This document shows, one piece after another, positions 3,781 to 9,840 of a stretch of DNA of 50,958 nucleotides. The stretch covers positions 1 to 50,958 of the forward strand of contig CACWLP010000012.1 in assembly GCA_902761755.1 (NCBI GenBank). Direction: 5' to 3'. The notes below the pieces were generated by a model that saw nothing but the letters and a program-made list of their open reading frames with translations, had not been told where the DNA came from and did no database searches. The translations under genes and the position numbers were made by a program. The number at the start of each line of letters is the position of its first letter. Position 1 is the stretch's first letter. The DNA comes from an uncultured Eubacteriales bacterium. Its GTDB lineage: Bacteria > Bacillota > Clostridia > Christensenellales > Aristaeellaceae.

Positions 3781-6063
3781 TTACAACAGCGCGCGCTGGA
3801 TCTTGCCGCTGGTGGTCTTGGGCAGTTCGTCCTTGAAAACCACGATGCGGGGGTACTTGTAGGGCGCGGTGCGCTGCTTGACGTAATTCTGGATCTCTTT
3901 CGCCAGGGCGTCGGAGGGCTCGGTGCCCTTCACCAGCACGATGCTGGCCTTGACCACCTGGCCGCGGATGGGATCCGGGGCGGCGGAAACGCCGCACTCC
4001 AGCACGTAGGGCAGCTCCATGATGACGGATTCGATCTCGAAAGGCCCGATGCGGTAGCCGGAGGACTTGATCAGATCGTCCACCCGGCCCACATACCAGT
4101 AGTAGCCGTCCTCATCCCGCCAGGCGGTATCGCCGGTGTGATAAAGGCCGTCGTGCCAGTTGCCGTTCACGTTGCGGTCGTCGCTGCCGTAATAGCCGGT
4201 GAGCAGCCCGCACTGGGGGCCTTCGTCGGTATGGATGACGATCTCGCCCACCTCGCCCACGGGCACCGTTTTGCCCTGGGCGTCCACCAGATCCACGTCG
4301 TAAAGGGGCACAGGCTTGCCCATGGAGCCGGGCTTGGGCACCATGCCGGTGAGATTGCCGATGATGACGGCGCTTTCGCTCTGGCCGAAGCCCTCCATGA
4401 TGGAAAGGCCGGTGGCCTCCTTGAACTTCTGGAACACCTCGGGGTTCAGCGCTTCCCCGGCGATGGAGGCGTGGACGATGCTGCTCAGATCGTACTTGCT
4501 CAGATCCTCCTTGATGAGCATGCGGTACATGGTGGGCGGCGCGCAGAACGTCTTGATATCGTACTGCTTGAACAGGGGCAGGATGTCTTCGGCGTGGAAG
4601 CGGTCGAAATCGTAAACGAAGATGGCCGCCTCGCACAGCCACTGGCCGAAGATCTTCCCCCAGCAGGCCTTGGCCCAGCCGGTATCGGAAATGGTCAGGT
4701 GCAGCTTGCCCGGGATCACGTTGTGCCAGAATTTGGCCGTCATGAAATGCCCCAGGGGGTACTTATAGCTGTGGCACACCAGCTTGGGGTATCCGGTGGT
4801 GCCGGAGGTAAAGAACATGAGCATGGGATCGTCCCCGCCGGGGCAGTCCTGGGGCCGGTCGAAATGCGAGGAAAAAACGGTGTATTCGCTGTCAAAATCG
4901 TGCCAGCCCTCCCGGCTGCCGCCGCAGTAAACCAGCGTCTTCACATCGGGGCATTCGGGCAGCGCCTTTTCGATCTCCCCCGCCGCCTGGCCGTGGGAGG
5001 TGGCGATCACGCCGCAGACTTCGCCCGTCTGGAAGCGGTAAATGTAATCCTTGCACAGCAGCTGGTCCGTGGCGGGGATCACCACCACGCCCAGCTTTTC
5101 CATGGCCAGCATGGTGATCCAGAAATGATACTGCCGCCGCAGCACCAGCATCACCCGGTCGCCCCGCTTCAGGCCCAGGGAGCGGTAATAATTCGCCGCC
5201 CGGTTGCTCATTTTGCGCAGCGTCTCGAAGGTGAAGCGCCGCTCCTGCCGGTTGATATCCAGATGCAGCATGGCCATCTGATCGGGATGCTGCTTCGCCA
5301 GCTCGTCCATGACGTCGTAGGCGAAATTGAAGCGGTCGATATCGTGATAATGCACGGAGGTGGGGGTGCCCATTTCGTTGACCGTATAATCCACGAACCG
5401 GTCCGCGATGGTGGCGCGGTGCTCGGCGGCGGGCAGCACGGCCTCGTGGGCGGCGGGGGCCTCCGTTTCCTCGCCGGGGATGACCACCGCCAGGAACACG
5501 CAGTCCTGCCCCTCGGCGGCGATCATGCCGTGGGGGGTGGAGGAATCCAGCAGGATGGAATCCCCGGCCCGCAATGTTTCCGTATGCTCGCCGATCTGCA
5601 CCCGCAGCACGCCGGAAATGATGTAGTCGAATTCCTGGCCGGAGTGGGTGTCGGTATGGATGGGCCGGGCCTGCAATTCCGGATCGTAGGAATAGCGGGT
5701 CATGTAGGGCTCCACCAGGCGCTTGCGGAACAGGGCCGCCAGGTTGCGCATCTGGATACCCCGGTTGTCGGTGGTCAGTTCGCCCTGGCCGTGGCGGGTA
5801 ACAGTATAATTGGAAAGGCGGGGGCTGCTGCCCTCGATCAGGTCCACGATGTCCACGCCGAAGGCAATGGCGCACTTGTGAACGAAGGAGAAGGGCATTT
5901 CCGCGCTGCCGGATTCATAGCGCGCGCAGTCCGCCTCGCTGAACCCGGTCAGGCGGGACAGGTCCGCGGTGGTGTAGCCGGCGATGTCCTTCAGTTCCCG
6001 GATACGGGCGCTCACGTCCCGGAGCATGTCCGGGGCCTGGGGCTTAAAGGAAGCTGCTTCCAT
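3781..6063 (-). CDS. XRE-cupin-acyl-CoA synthetase fusion protein
   Basis: A 760-residue three-part protein. Residues about 14-70 are an XRE-type helix-turn-helix (TTADLSRLTGFSEADCARYE). Residues about 105-195 are a small cupin barrel (THSGQEFDYIISG, then GDSILLDSSTPHG). The rest is an AMP-forming acyl-CoA synthetase of the medium-chain/ACS type. It carries FFTSGTTGYPK near 414, GFGQSES near 559, YHTGD near 644, the hinge GRVDDLIKSSGYRIGP, and the catalytic Lys in TTSGKIQ near 755. The ligase motifs are intact, so it should activate a carboxylic acid to its CoA thioester. The HTH-cupin half may sense a ligand or be a retired regulator. Expression is under the T-box at 6096-6369. GAGGAGGA lies 7-8 bases before the start. 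The divergent neighbour is a 2-oxoacid:ferredoxin oxidoreductase operon, which suggests the acid is related to a 2-oxoacid. The true substrate is unknown. Confidence 0.93.
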   Translation of the reverse strand: MEAASFKPQAPDMLRDVSARIRELKDIAGYTTADLSRLTGFSEADCARYESGSAEMPFSFVHKCAIAFGVDIVDLIEGSSPRLSNYTVTRHGQGELTTDNRGIQMRNLAALFRKRLVEPYMTRYSYDPELQARPIHTDTHSGQEFDYIISGVLRVQIGEHTETLRAGDSILLDSSTPHGMIAAEGQDCVFLAVVIPGEETEAPAAHEAVLPAAEHRATIADRFVDYTVNEMGTPTSVHYHDIDRFNFAYDVMDELAKQHPDQMAMLHLDINRQERRFTFETLRKMSNRAANYYRSLGLKRGDRVMLVLRRQYHFWITMLAMEKLGVVVIPATDQLLCKDYIYRFQTGEVCGVIATSHGQAAGEIEKALPECPDVKTLVYCGGSREGWHDFDSEYTVFSSHFDRPQDCPGGDDPMLMFFTSGTTGYPKLVCHSYKYPLGHFMTAKFWHNVIPGKLHLTISDTGWAKACWGKIFGQWLCEAAIFVYDFDRFHAEDILPLFKQYDIKTFCAPPTMYRMLIKEDLSKYDLSSIVHASIAGEALNPEVFQKFKEATGLSIMEGFGQSESAVIIGNLTGMVPKPGSMGKPVPLYDVDLVDAQGKTVPVGEVGEIVIHTDEGPQCGLLTGYYGSDDRNVNGNWHDGLYHTGDTAWRDEDGYYWYVGRVDDLIKSSGYRIGPFEIESVIMELPYVLECGVSAAPDPIRGQVVKASIVLVKGTEPSDALAKEIQNYVKQRTAPYKYPRIVVFKDELPKTTSGKIQRALL

Positions 6064-6095
6064 GGGGGATTCCTCCTCTGTGCTTGGAACGAATC

Positions 6096-6369
6096 AAAAA
6101 CCCGTCCCAAAGTTTCTGCTTTGAGACGGGCTGATTTTTCAGCTCGCGGTACCACTCAAATTGTGCGCCGTGCGCACCGCTCTTCAGGCTCTTTGCAAAG
6201 CCCTCCGCCCTGACGCGGCGGTCATCGGGGACCCTTACTGCTTTCTGTTCAGGGCCCGGCTCGGGAGCCACAGCATTGGGAGGGCATCCTCACCGGCTTT
6301 CAGCAGCCGCCGGCTCTCTGCATCGGATGGCGAACCCGCCTTCTCCTTCATCGCCTTTGCTATGCGATT
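6096..6369 (-). promoter_or_regulatory. T-box riboswitch leader, likely tRNA-Val specific
   Basis: Reading the minus strand, Stem I starts near 6360, with GGC/GCC base pairs, a kink-turn (GATGAA against CGA), then GGAG (6343-6346) paired with CTCC (6264-6267). The AGAGAG hairpin lies around 6300-6320. The T-box itself, GAGTGGTACCGCG, is at 6145-6157. It is followed by a terminator stem CCCGTC...GACGGG (6101-6130) and a T-run (6096-6100). The three bases that precede the conserved purine beside the CTCC strand read GTG (6269-6271), a valine codon. The bulge sequence TGGT predicts a discriminator base A, which fits tRNA-Val and argues against tRNA-Trp. Uncharged tRNA should therefore allow readthrough into the synthetase gene. 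The class is certain from the sequence; the specifier assignment is good but not proven. Confidence 0.9.
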
Positions 6370-6375
6370 ATGGGT

Positions 6376-6404
6376 AGTGTAGCAGATTTTTTCCCGCTTG
6401 TCAA
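6376..6404 (-). promoter_or_regulatory. Promoter of the T-box leader
   Basis: On the minus strand a perfect TTGACA (6399-6404), a 17 bp spacer and TACACT (6376-6381). Transcription would begin about 6369, just before Stem I of the T-box. Confidence 0.85.
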
Positions 6405-6459
6405 CCGCCTTTCCCCCGTTTTTTTCCGCTGTATACAAAAGAAATACAGCTTCCCGGGA

Positions 6460-6488
6460 TTGACATTTTTGCGCAACCGGAGGATAAT
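6460..6488 (+). promoter_or_regulatory. Promoter of the NTPase-ferredoxin-oxidoreductase operon
   Basis: TTGACA (6460-6465), a 17 bp spacer and GATAAT (6483-6488), divergent from the T-box promoter 56 bp away. No T-box or other leader structure lies between it and the TTG start at 6532, so this operon does not share the tRNA control. Confidence 0.8.
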
Positions 6489-6531
6489 TTATAGAAACGC
6501 GGCGCCCGTCACGGGCGGAAGGGAGGGGCCT

Positions 6532-7218
6532 TTGAAGCGGATCATCGTGATCGCTGGCCATTACGGCAGCGGAAAAACCGAGCTGGCGGTGAGCCTGGCC
6601 ATGCAGCTGTCCGCCGAAAAGGACAGGCTTTTCCCCCGGCTGGCGGTGGTGGATCTGGATATCGCCAACCCCTATTTCCGTTCCCGGGAGCGGATGCAGC
6701 TGCTGCGGGAGCACAGCGTATCCCTCTACGCCGACGCGTTCGATTCCACCGGCACCACGGCGGAGCTGCCCGCCCTGACGGCGGCCCTGCGGGCGCCCCT
6801 GGAGGACGAAGGCTGCCGCACGATCGTGGATCTGGGCGGCAACGACGCCGGAGCCCGGGTGCTCAAGCAGTTTTCCAAGTATTTTCAGGGGGACGGCCAC
6901 GAATTGTGGGCGGTGGTGAATTTCCGACGGTACGAAACCCTCACCGTGGAAAACGCCCGGGCCCACGTGGAGGCCATCCAAAGGGAACTGGACATGCCGG
7001 TGACGGGCCTGGTCAACAACACCCACCTGCTAAGGGAAACCGCGCCGGAGATCCTCCGGGAGGGCTGGGAAAAGGCAAAAGCCCTGTCGGAACAAATGAA
7101 GATCCCCCTGCTGTTCACCTGCTATCCCGCGGGCCTCGTTTCCCCGGAGCAGCTGGCGGGCATCGCCCCGCTGATGCCCCTGGGGCTGTACATGCGGCCC
7201 GCTTACCTGGATAAATAA
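6532..7218 (+). CDS. P-loop NTPase heading the 2-oxoacid oxidoreductase operon
   Basis: A 228-residue cytoplasmic P-loop protein of the MinD/ParA/CobQ-like class. Walker A is GHYGSGKTE at residues 9-17. An Asp-rich VVDLDIANPYFRSRE segment follows near 40-55 and a Walker-B-like IVDLGGNDAG near 100. The start is TTG at 6532. It follows GGGAGGGG and brings the P-loop to the usual distance from the N-terminus, whereas the longer upstream extension would cross the promoter. It is the first gene of the operon with ferredoxin and three oxidoreductase subunits. By analogy with related NTPases it may help cofactor or Fe-S insertion or complex assembly. That role is inference; the family has no firm function. 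Confidence 0.88.
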   Translation: MKRIIVIAGHYGSGKTELAVSLAMQLSAEKDRLFPRLAVVDLDIANPYFRSRERMQLLREHSVSLYADAFDSTGTTAELPALTAALRAPLEDEGCRTIVDLGGNDAGARVLKQFSKYFQGDGHELWAVVNFRRYETLTVENARAHVEAIQRELDMPVTGLVNNTHLLRETAPEILREGWEKAKALSEQMKIPLLFTCYPAGLVSPEQLAGIAPLMPLGLYMRPAYLDK

Positions 7219-7248
7219 CGCATTCGCAAGAAGAAGGGAGAAGAAAGC

Positions 7249-7476
7249 ATGCGGTCATTCAAGCTGGTTTTCCACCCGGAAAGGTGCAAAGGCTGCGAGC
7301 TGTGCCGGAACGCCTGTCCCAAGGACGTGATCGGCATGGCCAAGGAGGTCAACCTGAAAGGCTATCATCCCGCCTGCGCGGTGAATGAAAGCGCCTGCAT
7401 CGGCTGTGCCAGCTGCGCCACCATGTGCCCCGACGGGGCCATCGAAATCTATCTGAAGGAGGAGGGCGACCAATGA
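7249..7476 (+). CDS. 2[4Fe-4S] ferredoxin, delta subunit of the oxidoreductase
   Basis: A 75-residue protein with two classical cluster motifs: Cys13, Cys16, Cys19, Cys23, and Cys50, Cys53, Cys56, Cys60. Such delta subunits (PorD/VorD type) carry electrons between the thiamine-diphosphate site of 2-oxoacid oxidoreductases and the soluble ferredoxin pool. Its stop overlaps the next start (ATGA), which indicates translational coupling with the alpha subunit. AGAAGGGAG precedes the start. Confidence 0.95.
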   Translation: MRSFKLVFHPERCKGCELCRNACPKDVIGMAKEVNLKGYHPACAVNESACIGCASCATMCPDGAIEIYLKEEGDQ

Positions 7477-8567
7477 CCACCGACAAAGTGCTCATGAAGG
7501 GCAACGAAGCCTTCGCCGAGGCCGCCATCCGCGGCGGCGCCCGGCTGTATTTCGGCTATCCCATCACCCCCCAGAGCGAAGTGCCCGAGTATATGAGCCG
7601 GGAGCTTCCCAAGGTGGGCGGCTGCTTCATCCAGGCGGAGAGCGAGCTGGGGGCCATCAACATGGCCTACGGCGCCGGCGCCGCGGGCGGCAGCGTGTTC
7701 ATTTCTTCCTCTTCCCCCGGCATCGCCCTGATGCAGGAGGGCATGAGCTTCCTCTGCTCCGCGGAGGTGCCGCTGCTGGCCATGAACGTCAGCCGCGGCG
7801 GGCCCGGCATCGGCGGCATCCAGCCCGGCCAGGCGGACTATTACCAGGTCACCCGGGGCGGCGGCAACGGCGACTATCATATCCCCGTGTTCGCCCCCGC
7901 GTCCATTCAGGAGGCGGTGGACCTGCTCTACGAAGGCACCGAGCTGGCCCAGACCTGGCGCAACCCCATCATGGTCTTCACCGACGGCATGGTGGGCCAG
8001 ATGATGGAGCCCGTGAAGCTGCCGGATTACAAGCCCGTCCTCAAGCCCAGCGAAATCGCCGCGGCCCGGAACTGGGCCTGCACCGGCTACACCGACCGGG
8101 GCGGCGACAAGGAGCGCCGGGTGGTCAAATCCCTGCGCATGCAGCCCGAAAAGCTGGAAGAGCACGTGGAAAAGCTGTTTGAAAAATACGCCCGGGCCGA
8201 AAAGGAGCTGGCCCGCTGGGAGAGCGAAAACCTCAAGGGCGCGGAGGTCGTATTCGTGTCCTTCGGCACCACCGCCCGCATCTGCCGGGAAGCCATCGAG
8301 ATCCTGGCAAGCCGGGGCGTAAAGGCCGGGCTCATCCGGCCCATCAGCCTGTGGCCCTTCCCCAACAAAGCCTTCGATGAGATCGACTTTGGCACCACGA
8401 AAGCCGTCATTTCCGCCGAGCTTTCCATGGGCCAGATGATCACCGACGTGCAGCTGGCCCTGAACGGCCGCCTGCCCGTTTTCCTGGCCCACCGCACCGG
8501 CGGCATGGTGCCCACCTCGCCGGAAGTGGCCGCCCGGGCCCAGGCTGTATTGGAGGGATTGAAATGA
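7473..8567 (+). CDS. vorB: 2-oxoacid:ferredoxin oxidoreductase alpha subunit, VorB type
   Basis: A 364-residue subunit of the cytoplasmic enzyme that interconverts a 2-oxoacid plus CoA with acyl-CoA, CO2 and reduced ferredoxin. The N-terminal domain has the family signature GNEAFAEAAIRGG and YFGYPITPQSE. It is followed by the pyrimidine-binding region (AESELGAINMAYGAGAAG, SSSSPGIALMQEG) and a transketolase C-terminal-like domain (VSFGTTARICREA, GLIRPISLWPFP). The overall look matches the VorB group usually named 3-methyl-2-oxobutanoate dehydrogenase. Substrate range in this group is often broad, so branched-chain preference is likely rather than proven. The start is the ATG overlapping the ferredoxin stop; the longer opening inside that gene is not used. 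Confidence 0.93.
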   Translation: MTTDKVLMKGNEAFAEAAIRGGARLYFGYPITPQSEVPEYMSRELPKVGGCFIQAESELGAINMAYGAGAAGGSVFISSSSPGIALMQEGMSFLCSAEVPLLAMNVSRGGPGIGGIQPGQADYYQVTRGGGNGDYHIPVFAPASIQEAVDLLYEGTELAQTWRNPIMVFTDGMVGQMMEPVKLPDYKPVLKPSEIAAARNWACTGYTDRGGDKERRVVKSLRMQPEKLEEHVEKLFEKYARAEKELARWESENLKGAEVVFVSFGTTARICREAIEILASRGVKAGLIRPISLWPFPNKAFDEIDFGTTKAVISAELSMGQMITDVQLALNGRLPVFLAHRTGGMVPTSPEVAARAQAVLEGLK

Positions 8568-9316
8568 AGCCGATTTTTGAATACACCAAGGGCATGACCG
8601 AAATGTCCACCCACTACTGCCCCGGCTGCACTCACGGCATCGCCCACCGGATCATCATGGAAGTGCTGGATGAAATGGGCGAACTGGGCAACACCATCGG
8701 CGTGGCCCCCATCGGCTGCTCCGTTATGGCGCATCAGTACATGAACGTGGATATGTGCGAAGCCGCCCACGGCCGCGCCCCCGCGGTGGCCAGCGGCATC
8801 CGCCGGGTGCACCCGGACAAGACGGTGTTCACCTATCAGGGCGACGGCGATTTGGCCTCCATCGGCACCGCCGAGATCGTCCACGCGGCGGTCCGCGGCG
8901 AAAAATTCACCGCCTTCTTCATCAACAACGGCATCTACGGCATGACCGGCGGCCAGATGGCCCCCACCACCCTCATCGGCCAGCGCAGCACCACCAGCCA
9001 GGACGGCCGCAGCAAGGAGCTCAACGGCATGCCCATCAAAATGAGCGAAATGCTGGCCTCCATCGACGGCGCGGTGTATGTGGAGCGCGTGGCGCTGGAC
9101 AGCCCCGCCCACGTGCGCCAGGCGAAAAAGGCCGTGCGGAAAGCCTTCGAGATCCAGAAAAAGGGCCTGGGCTTCACCCTGATCGAATTCCTGTCCACCT
9201 GCCCCACCAACTGGGGCATGACCCCCGTGAAAGCCCTGGAATGGGTGCGCAACAACGTGATGGCGTACTATCCCATCGGCGTGATCAAGGAACCGAAGGA
9301 GGCGGAAGAAGCATGA
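8564..9316 (+). CDS. 2-oxoacid:ferredoxin oxidoreductase beta subunit (thiamine-diphosphate binding)
   Basis: A 250-residue catalytic subunit. CPGCTHG at Cys19/Cys22 supplies cluster or structural cysteines. The thiamine-diphosphate/Mg motif runs from GDGD near residue 93 to INNGIYGMTGGQ near 120. It forms the active site together with VorB. Its ATG overlaps the VorB stop by four bases, and its own end overlaps the gamma subunit start, so expression should be stoichiometric. Confidence 0.94.
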   Translation: MKPIFEYTKGMTEMSTHYCPGCTHGIAHRIIMEVLDEMGELGNTIGVAPIGCSVMAHQYMNVDMCEAAHGRAPAVASGIRRVHPDKTVFTYQGDGDLASIGTAEIVHAAVRGEKFTAFFINNGIYGMTGGQMAPTTLIGQRSTTSQDGRSKELNGMPIKMSEMLASIDGAVYVERVALDSPAHVRQAKKAVRKAFEIQKKGLGFTLIEFLSTCPTNWGMTPVKALEWVRNNVMAYYPIGVIKEPKEAEEA

Positions 9317-9840
9317 GCACCTACAAAATGTTTTTCGCCGGTTCCGGCGGCCAGGGCGTGCTTTTGATGGGCCAGATGATCGCCCAGGCGGCCATGCTGG
9401 AAGGCAAGGAAGCCACCTTCCTTCCCTCCTACGGCCCCGAAATGCGCGGCGGCACCGCCAACTGCACCGTGGTGGTCAGCGACAAGCCCATCGCCTGCCC
9501 CCTGATCTACGAGGCGGACATCGCGGTGGTCATGAACCTGCCCTCCATGGATAAGTTCGAGCCCATGGTCAAGCCCGGCGGGTATATGTTCTACAACGAA
9601 TCCATCATCGACCGCAAAGCGAACCGCAGCGACATCCAGGCCGTCGCCGTGGACCTGGCCGCCCGCGCCGCCGCCCTGGGCAACGACAAGGTGGCCAACA
9701 TGGTGATGCTGGGCGAAGTGGTGCGCCGCACGGGCGTGGTGAAGCCCGAAACCATCTGCAACGAGGTGTTCGCGGAGAAGTTCACCGGCCGCAAGGCCGC
9801 CCTGATCCCCCTGAACAGGCAGGCGTTCCTGGGCGAGTGA
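9313..9840 (+). CDS. 2-oxoacid:ferredoxin oxidoreductase gamma subunit
   Basis: A 175-residue gamma-type subunit with the expected GSGGQGVLLMGQ at residues 10-21, PSYGPEMRGGTANC near 37-50 and a terminal LIPLNRQAF segment. It completes the set delta-alpha-beta-gamma. The start is the ATG that overlaps the beta subunit stop; GAAGGAGGCGGAAG lies just before it. A long antisense-free opening reading into the preceding gene in this frame is not a coding extension. A terminator follows at 9858-9887. Confidence 0.93.
   Translation: MSTYKMFFAGSGGQGVLLMGQMIAQAAMLEGKEATFLPSYGPEMRGGTANCTVVVSDKPIACPLIYEADIAVVMNLPSMDKFEPMVKPGGYMFYNESIIDRKANRSDIQAVAVDLAARAAALGNDKVANMVMLGEVVRRTGVVKPETICNEVFAEKFTGRKAALIPLNRQAFLGE

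Follow-up and report, generated by a model that had tools for sequence, protein, structure and literature searches.

That rumen microbes use or require branched short-chain acids is long established. Decades-old reports of valine made from isobutyrate and isoleucine made from 2-methylbutyrate in rumen anaerobes are cited in the available part of PMC7356843, with Allison & Peel 1971 and Robinson & Allison as sources for the two routes. Here we describe a gene module that would use the same chemistry in a like habitat: a T-box-controlled acyl-coenzyme A (CoA) ligase divergent from a ferredoxin-dependent VorB-type oxidoreductase (VOR), in an uncultured Eubacteriales bacterium (GCA_902761755.1; GTDB lineage Bacteria; Bacillota; Clostridia; Christensenellales; Aristaeellaceae). 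The whole stretch analyzed, 50,958 nucleotides of contig CACWLP010000012.1 (positions 1-50,958, plus strand), is called the window, and its source genome, 73% complete, is called G000. The older work was biochemical, and the available part of PMC7356843 names no genes, regulators, or specificity residue.

Two described enzymes come closest to the ligase. MacsMa, a medium-chain acyl-CoA synthetase, prefers 2-methylbutyrate according to the accessible portion of PMC10455477; it is the best solved relative of the ligase domain and has Gly at the position of residue 464, like the isoleucine-type ligases described below. It differs in being archaeal and in matching the ligase part only, whereas the window enzyme adds an XRE-cupin N terminus and has Ala at 464. 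MbcS of Staphylococcus aureus activates 2-methylbutyrate and isobutyrate and is poor on isovalerate (PMC10026030, in the sections at hand, which mention neither a T-box nor a VOR). This activation of branched C4-C5 acids belongs to the best NCBIfam match of the window ligase; however, the window ligase reaches half the curated cut-off, and MbcS serves fatty acid priming. The leader is of the same regulator class as the T-boxes covered in the accessible part of PMC2494555, which control amino acid biosynthesis genes and whose specifier codon has been used to assign gene function; the words "CoA," "ferredoxin," and "carboxylation" have no hits in its main text. The oxidoreductase resembles the VorB-type family (PRK07119) in its four subunits, with the alpha subunit above the cut-off, and differs in that its genes diverge from a T-box ligase gene and begin with a conserved P-loop nucleoside triphosphatase (NTPase) gene. 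Among the matches listed in the open-access literature, which leaves most subscription papers outside, no paper was found in which a T-box is linked to a ligase of this kind or to a VOR, and none with a coupling of codon and pocket residue. Judged by those matches, the route is classical rumen biochemistry, and the T-box control and the codon-pocket coupling seem to be the new part.

Architecture of the divergent locus

The ligase gene and its leader lie on the minus strand, and the VOR operon is a five-gene run at 6532-9840 on the plus strand, divergent from them. The initial annotation of this DNA had placed a tRNA-controlled acid-activating enzyme beside a complete VorB-type oxidoreductase, and this was confirmed: the T-box, the ligase domains, and the VOR subunits were all found. 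The features are as follows.

3781-6063, minus strand: XRE helix-turn-helix, cupin, and AMP-forming acyl-CoA ligase in one protein of 760 residues, predicted isobutyrate:CoA ligase (open reading frame, Pfam/NCBIfam, PDB match)
4672-4674, minus strand: codon GCC (Ala) of residue 464, predicted acyl-pocket specificity residue (codon checked, alignment)
6132-6099, minus strand: terminator-like hairpin of 14 pairs with a T tail, overlapping the 3' end of the T-box (hairpin search)
6119-6360, minus strand: T-box leader of the ligase gene, RF00230 (79.8 bits, E 3e-17, model 1-219)
6269-6271, minus strand: predicted specifier codon GUG (Val) (Rfam alignment, position checked, comparison with 150 ligase leaders)
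6404-6376, minus strand: sigma-70-like promoter of the T-box transcript, TTGACA-17-TACACT, 10/12 matches
6460-6488, plus strand: sigma-70-like promoter of the VOR operon, TTGACA-17-GATAAT, 11/12 matches
6532-7218, plus strand: P-loop NTPase of the VOR operon, distantly ParA/Mrp/ArsA-like (weak family matches; conservation)
7249-7476, plus strand: 2x[4Fe-4S] ferredoxin-like delta subunit of VOR (Pfam)
7473-8567, plus strand: VOR alpha subunit, VorB-type PRK07119 (454.5 bits against a cut-off of 399, NCBIfam)
8564-9316, plus strand: VOR beta subunit, binding thiamine pyrophosphate (TPP) (TPP_enzyme_C, 72 bits; CPGC and GDGD motifs in the translation)
9313-9840, plus strand: VOR gamma subunit (POR domain, 125 bits)

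The two promoters stand back-to-back between the ligase and the VOR operon, where shuffled sequences lead one to expect 0.3 rather than the 2 seen.

The ligase matches the Pfam families AMP-binding (194 bits), AMP-binding_C (77), Cupin_2 (47.4), and HTH_31 (27). Its best PDB match, covering query residues 243-758 with 595 bits, is 3ETC, which carries the PDB name "AMP-binding protein" and which we take to be MacsMa of Methanosarcina acetivorans. The best NCBIfam model is MbcS (NF047394) with 423.6 bits; as this falls below the curated equivalog cut-off of 850 bits, we describe the protein as MbcS-like without assigning it to MbcS. Like enzymes of the Macs/MbcS kind, it has both the AMP-binding and the C-terminal domain, and G560 aligns with the pocket residue Trp414 of E. 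coli Acs. A paralogue elsewhere in the same genome (G000:C22:35268-37526) is 68% identical to it and has a leader with the codon AUC (Ile).

Besides the alpha subunit above its cut-off, the VOR has the beta (TPP), gamma, and 4Fe4S delta subunits of the VorB type, these three being recognized at family level, below equivalog cut-offs. It is predicted to act on 2-oxoisovalerate and isobutyryl-CoA. The NTPase matches no family above cut-off and gives only weak ParA/Mrp/ArsA matches; it may have a role in iron-sulfur loading or enzyme activation. No T-box was found ahead of the VOR operon of the window in a permissive Rfam scan.

The ligase leader and its specifier codon

The T-box match spans the full RF00230 model (1-219/219), with stem I, T-box bulge, and antiterminator, and the hairpin overlapping its 3' end provides a terminator as the alternative to the antiterminator. 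Because shuffled sequences average 1.9 such hairpins against the 1 found, the place of the hairpin and not its presence is the evidence. The leader was found in a permissive scan, and a scan of the window at the Rfam gathering score shows no T-box because 79.8 bits lies under that score (93). The same holds for 11 of the 13 T-boxes of the source genome (L001-L013), so most T-boxes of this GC-rich genome escape a default Rfam scan.

By the Rfam alignment the specifier is GUG (Val), which requires a 3-nucleotide insertion relative to the consensus; without the insertion, the triplet is GCU (Ala). For comparison, GTDB species genomes were searched for ligase-related loci, and the best 80 of at least 593 were used; a ruminant host or the rumen appears in 42 of the 80 record titles, horse or rabbit in a few, and 16 further titles carry RUG names, which presumably denote rumen genomes. 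Upstream DNA was available for 150 ligase copies (from L014-L123 plus the own-genome paralogue), of which 146 remain once four duplicates by upstream sequence are removed. We parsed 124 of the 150 leaders: 78 are Ile (AUC), 45 are Val (29 GUA, 11 GUC, 5 GUG), and 1 (L076) is ambiguous. Among the 26 unread leaders, an antiterminator motif is missing from 16 (the second ligase of a tandem in 12, a truncated end in 2, and 2 others) and present in 10 that could not be parsed; L100 and L121_4, with 1 and 3 nucleotides upstream, are counted within the 26, and the counts omit some others that by eye resemble Val or Ile. The leader of L076 (7671-7929), ambiguous by regular expression, reads AUC in the Rfam alignment; with the AUC and GUN counts, this leaves only Val and Ile among the parsed ligase leaders. 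One leader stands apart in length: upstream of 8001 in L049, about 250 bases separate specifier and antiterminator, against about 110-130 in most, with repeated motifs, a long leader after an enlarged repeat-bearing stretch that is perhaps an insertion.

At the specifier place, the parsed leaders of the family have AUC or GUN, and the preceding triplet varies across the family. Within the seven-member clade of the window ligase, the specifier triplet varies only synonymously (GUG/GUA). The reading rule was also applied to the other T-boxes of the source genome, which precede valS, alaS, hisS-aspS, an aminotransferase-tyrS pair, ileS, thrS, a trpB-like gene, proS, serS, cysS, and a leuA-like gene, the remaining two leaders preceding the two ligases; these genes were named by eye from translations. 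The rule yields the cognate codon in 9 of the 10 non-ligase leaders read (GUC, GCC, GAC, UAC, AUC, UGG, CCC, UCC, and CUC); to fit, the thrS leader needs a shift of one base, and that of cysS is outside the 10. The comparison with relatives favors GUG as the specifier, and the ligase T-box is predicted to sense uncharged tRNA-Val, in keeping with the valine control that had been supposed for it.

The specifier codon is coupled to one acyl-pocket residue

To relate leader and enzyme, we used a FastTree tree of 141 ligases (all trees were made with FastTree), which omits proteins of fewer than 700 residues and identical proteins (L047=L015, L052=L017, L054=L018, and L121_2452=L120_10581). Because its regular-expression reading was ambiguous, L076 is unlabeled in the tree and in the residue count. 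The tree contains two Val/Ile label changes: an old Val clade is set against an Ile clade, and the window Val clade lies within the Ile clade. Comprising 7 rows (support 100), the window clade has the Ile paralogue of its own genome as its sister (support 99), and a tree of the N terminus and one of the ligase domain both keep it there (support 96 and 99, respectively).

The leader codon predicts residue 464, which is Ala in 42 of 42 Val-controlled ligases and Gly in 74 of 74 Ile-controlled ligases; the 25 unlabeled rows have 20 Ala and 5 Gly. Only two of 820 alignment columns separate Val from Ile perfectly, column 100 in the N-terminal part and column 464 in the ligase. As the window clade adjoins the Ile paralogue of its own genome, codon and residue switched together. 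Within the old Val clade, L076 has an AUC leader together with Gly at 464 and is probably a third paired switch, in the reverse direction; the label changes number three once L076 is counted as Ile. The window clade has 122 fixed sites that differ from its sister, and 7 of these (76, 81, 115, 464, 562, 567, and 751) took the old-Val state. Within the Ile clade, eight comparisons run as controls each yielded between 0 and 5 sites of this kind, none at 464, 562, or 567.

Residue 464 aligns with Val310 of E. coli Acs, an acyl-pocket position that we take to be Ile312 of AcsMt, an equation that fits the two-residue offset between Trp416 and Trp414. That numbering offset is given in the accessible part of PMC10455477, and Ile312 of Acs (AcsMt) is listed among four conserved acetate-pocket residues that set acyl specificity in the part of PMC3477478 at hand. 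We infer that residue 464 sets the acid preference, with Ala favoring isobutyrate and Gly 2-methylbutyrate, and the methyl group that Ala adds to the pocket would fit the smaller acid. T-box codon and a single acyl-pocket residue appear to evolve as a matched pair, so that the codon in the RNA would foretell the substrate of the enzyme.

Of the 51 columns distinguishing the Ile clade from the old Val clade, 40 fall in the XRE-cupin part of the window ligase (residues 1-236, 5356-6063). This part is seemingly a separate gene adjoining the ligase in other genomes, to judge by separate matches in the 100-genome search described below, and may be a sensor of the cognate ligand.

Layout of the module in relatives

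A VOR alpha gene is present in 53 of the 80 loci and absent from 27, and the NTPase and ferredoxin genes accompany it in all 53. In 45 of the 53, the VOR lies downstream of the ligase on the same strand; the other 8 are divergent like the window, with Val leaders in 4 (the window clade plus L122, a truncated relative) and Ile leaders in 4. Two tandem ligases precede NTPase-ferredoxin-VorA in 36 of the 80 loci (36 of the 45 same-strand loci), and all three large VOR subunits are in view in 32 of these 36. Where both tandem leaders were parsed, the order was Ile first and Val second in 18 of 18 loci; in the other tandem loci, only the first was parsed in 15 (Ile), only the second in 1 (Val), and neither in 2.

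These layouts qualify two earlier suggestions. The window VOR is preceded by a promoter of its own without a T-box match, which would place control there on the activation of the acid; the proposal that only this step is controlled fits the divergent layout but not the 45 of 53 loci in which the VOR follows the ligase. Likewise, the reading of the window leader as valine-specific holds, but a valine-only module is too narrow, since the system pairs Ile and Val ligases.

Branched-chain amino acid genes in the family

We surveyed 100 genomes of the window's taxonomic family by homologue search (E 0.001). The ligase search matched 90 of the 100 when any related AMP-binding enzyme was counted, and a fused ligase was defined as one scoring above 850 bits in this search (n = 30). 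ilvC and ilvD are each above cut-off in 32 of the 100 genomes. ilvC occurs in 1 of the 30 fused-ligase genomes versus 31 of the 70 others (Fisher 1.8e-5), and at 90% completeness or more in 0 of 16 versus 23 of 45; ilvD occurs in 2 of 30 versus 30 of 70. Neither gene has a match in the source genome (73% complete, not closed), in G030, G069, and G094 of the same genus (95-96% complete, not closed), or in a 2-contig relative (97% complete), which answers the question of missing ilv genes as had been anticipated. A class IV aminotransferase (Aminotran_4) is present in 16 of 16 genomes checked, the source genome included, and ilvE_II is above cut-off in the two relatives tested, among them G038.

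Some relatives place these functions together. In G038 (L161, G038:C17 2688-10931) and G098 (L159, G098:C11), a single operon under a Leu T-box (CUC, by eye) holds a leuA-like gene, a TIM-barrel::AMP-ligase fusion, an aminotransferase gene, NTPase, ferredoxin, and VorABC, and ligase, VOR, and aminotransferase gene are likewise grouped in G047 and G031. Leu-type and aminotransferase operons that hold a VOR tie the VOR to branched-chain amino acid synthesis. Neither leuB above cut-off nor a small LeuD-like gene was found in G000, G069, G094, G038, and G098, which possibly make leucine from isovalerate. As a marker of genomes without ilv genes the TIM-barrel::AMP-ligase fusion was discarded, since it occurs in ilvC-bearing genomes too. 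The source genome itself has, at G000:C16:49783-54904, a Leu T-box (CUC, by eye) with a leuA-like gene, a TIM-barrel (AP_endonuc_2)::AMP-ligase fusion, and a class IV aminotransferase gene.

Proposed route and alternative explanations

We consider it very probable that the module serves valine biosynthesis by reductive carboxylation of isobutyrate, alongside an Ile paralogue and with residue 464 coupled to the codon. Uncharged tRNA-Val would bind the leader at GUG and prevent termination, so that the ligase is produced and converts environmental isobutyrate to isobutyryl-CoA. The divergent VOR would then use reduced ferredoxin and CO2 to form 2-oxoisovalerate, which a branched-chain aminotransferase would convert to valine, and the AUC-leader paralogue in the same genome would supply isoleucine from 2-methylbutyrate by the same route. 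The isobutyrate-to-valine module that the initial annotation had proposed is in this way supported as far as sequence can say, and its concern that the ligase might prefer unrelated acids is eased by the closest enzymes, MacsMa and MbcS, which take 2-methylbutyrate or isobutyrate.

Several observations weigh against this proposal. The triplet GCU preceding GUG is invariant in all seven window-clade leaders, and the ligase-domain tree with pocket columns omitted needs 6 label changes, not 2, with weak deep branches. Eight of the 80 loci have no VOR nearby despite at least 7 kb on both sides. When a strong ligase of any build is counted, 7 of 61 genomes have ilvC (25 of 39 among the others), and the Fisher tests use hand-compiled lists and ignore kinship. 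Within the genus, G030 (95% complete) has no match to ligase, ilvC, or ilvD and only a weak VorA match; G031 carries the fused ligase plus ilvC and ilvD; G095 carries the fused ligase, ilvD above cut-off, and a partial ilvC; and G070, with a truncated ligase, has ilvC and ilvD. Finally, G016, G060, and G086 have a full acetolactate synthase above cut-off without ilvC/ilvD. As an observation in itself, the ligase and conventional ilv genes occur together within one genus (G031, G070, and G095).

The alternative that survives best, although we think it unlikely, is that branched-chain fatty acids are primed with the isobutyryl-CoA that the ligase makes, as with Staphylococcus MbcS, and that the VOR is an unrelated neighbor. 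MbcS is the closest NCBIfam model and primes from 2-methylbutyrate and isobutyrate (PMC10026030, in the part available), and the same CoA esters could serve both uses. However, control by tRNA charging suits the supply of amino acids and not of lipids, the VOR is near the ligase in 53 of 80 loci, aminotransferase and leuA-like genes lie within the VOR operon in some relatives, and most fused-ligase genomes are without ilvC.

Catabolism of branched-chain amino acids, in which the VOR would oxidize 2-oxoacids to acyl-CoA and reduce ferredoxin, is very improbable. VOR enzymes can run in both directions, the oxidative one being that used by peptide-fermenting archaea; but a T-box induces under amino acid starvation, the opposite of catabolic need, and we reject oxidative use for this reason. 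Moreover, an AMP-forming ligase consumes ATP instead of saving it, by the established chemistry of the family, and ilvC and ilvD are mostly absent. We give similarly little credence to the view that the substrate of the ligase is a different acid (aryl or medium-chain) and that the Val and Ile codons are mere regulon history. MacsMa adenylates a broad range of acids (PMC10455477, in the portion seen), yet codon and pocket residue shift together, with three label changes if L076 is Ile, and regulon history alone would not be expected to tie the codon to one pocket residue. An alanine specifier, GCU, which the consensus spacing without insertion and the invariance of GCU in the window clade favor, is hardly credible and was rejected by comparison with the leaders of relatives, given a next triplet that is synonymous-only (GUG/GUA) in the clade and GUN or AUC in the parsed family, a preceding triplet that varies across that family, and a reading rule that is cognate in 9 of 10 other leaders of the genome, their genes named by eye.

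Beyond the window, we lean toward the view that in many gut Clostridia, those of ruminants above all, branched-chain amino acids are built from waste branched fatty acids by modular tRNA-switched ligases for Val, Ile, and perhaps Leu (the last by way of the TIM-barrel::AMP-ligase fusion) that feed one VOR, with codon and pocket residue co-evolving. The module supplies candidate genes, regulators, and one testable specificity residue for the route from isoacids to amino acids, and the codon-residue coupling offers a clean case of a riboswitch and its enzyme changing specificity together. Reductive carboxylation of valine and isoleucine precursors could explain the apparent auxotrophy for these amino acids in many gut genomes; the word "carboxylation" has no hits in the main text of GapMind. 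It could also help in culturing such strains and bear on isoacid feeding of ruminants.

Near the module, at 303-1310, the window also encodes an ATP-grasp protein of the sugar-transfer-associated kind (PF14397, 162.7 bits).

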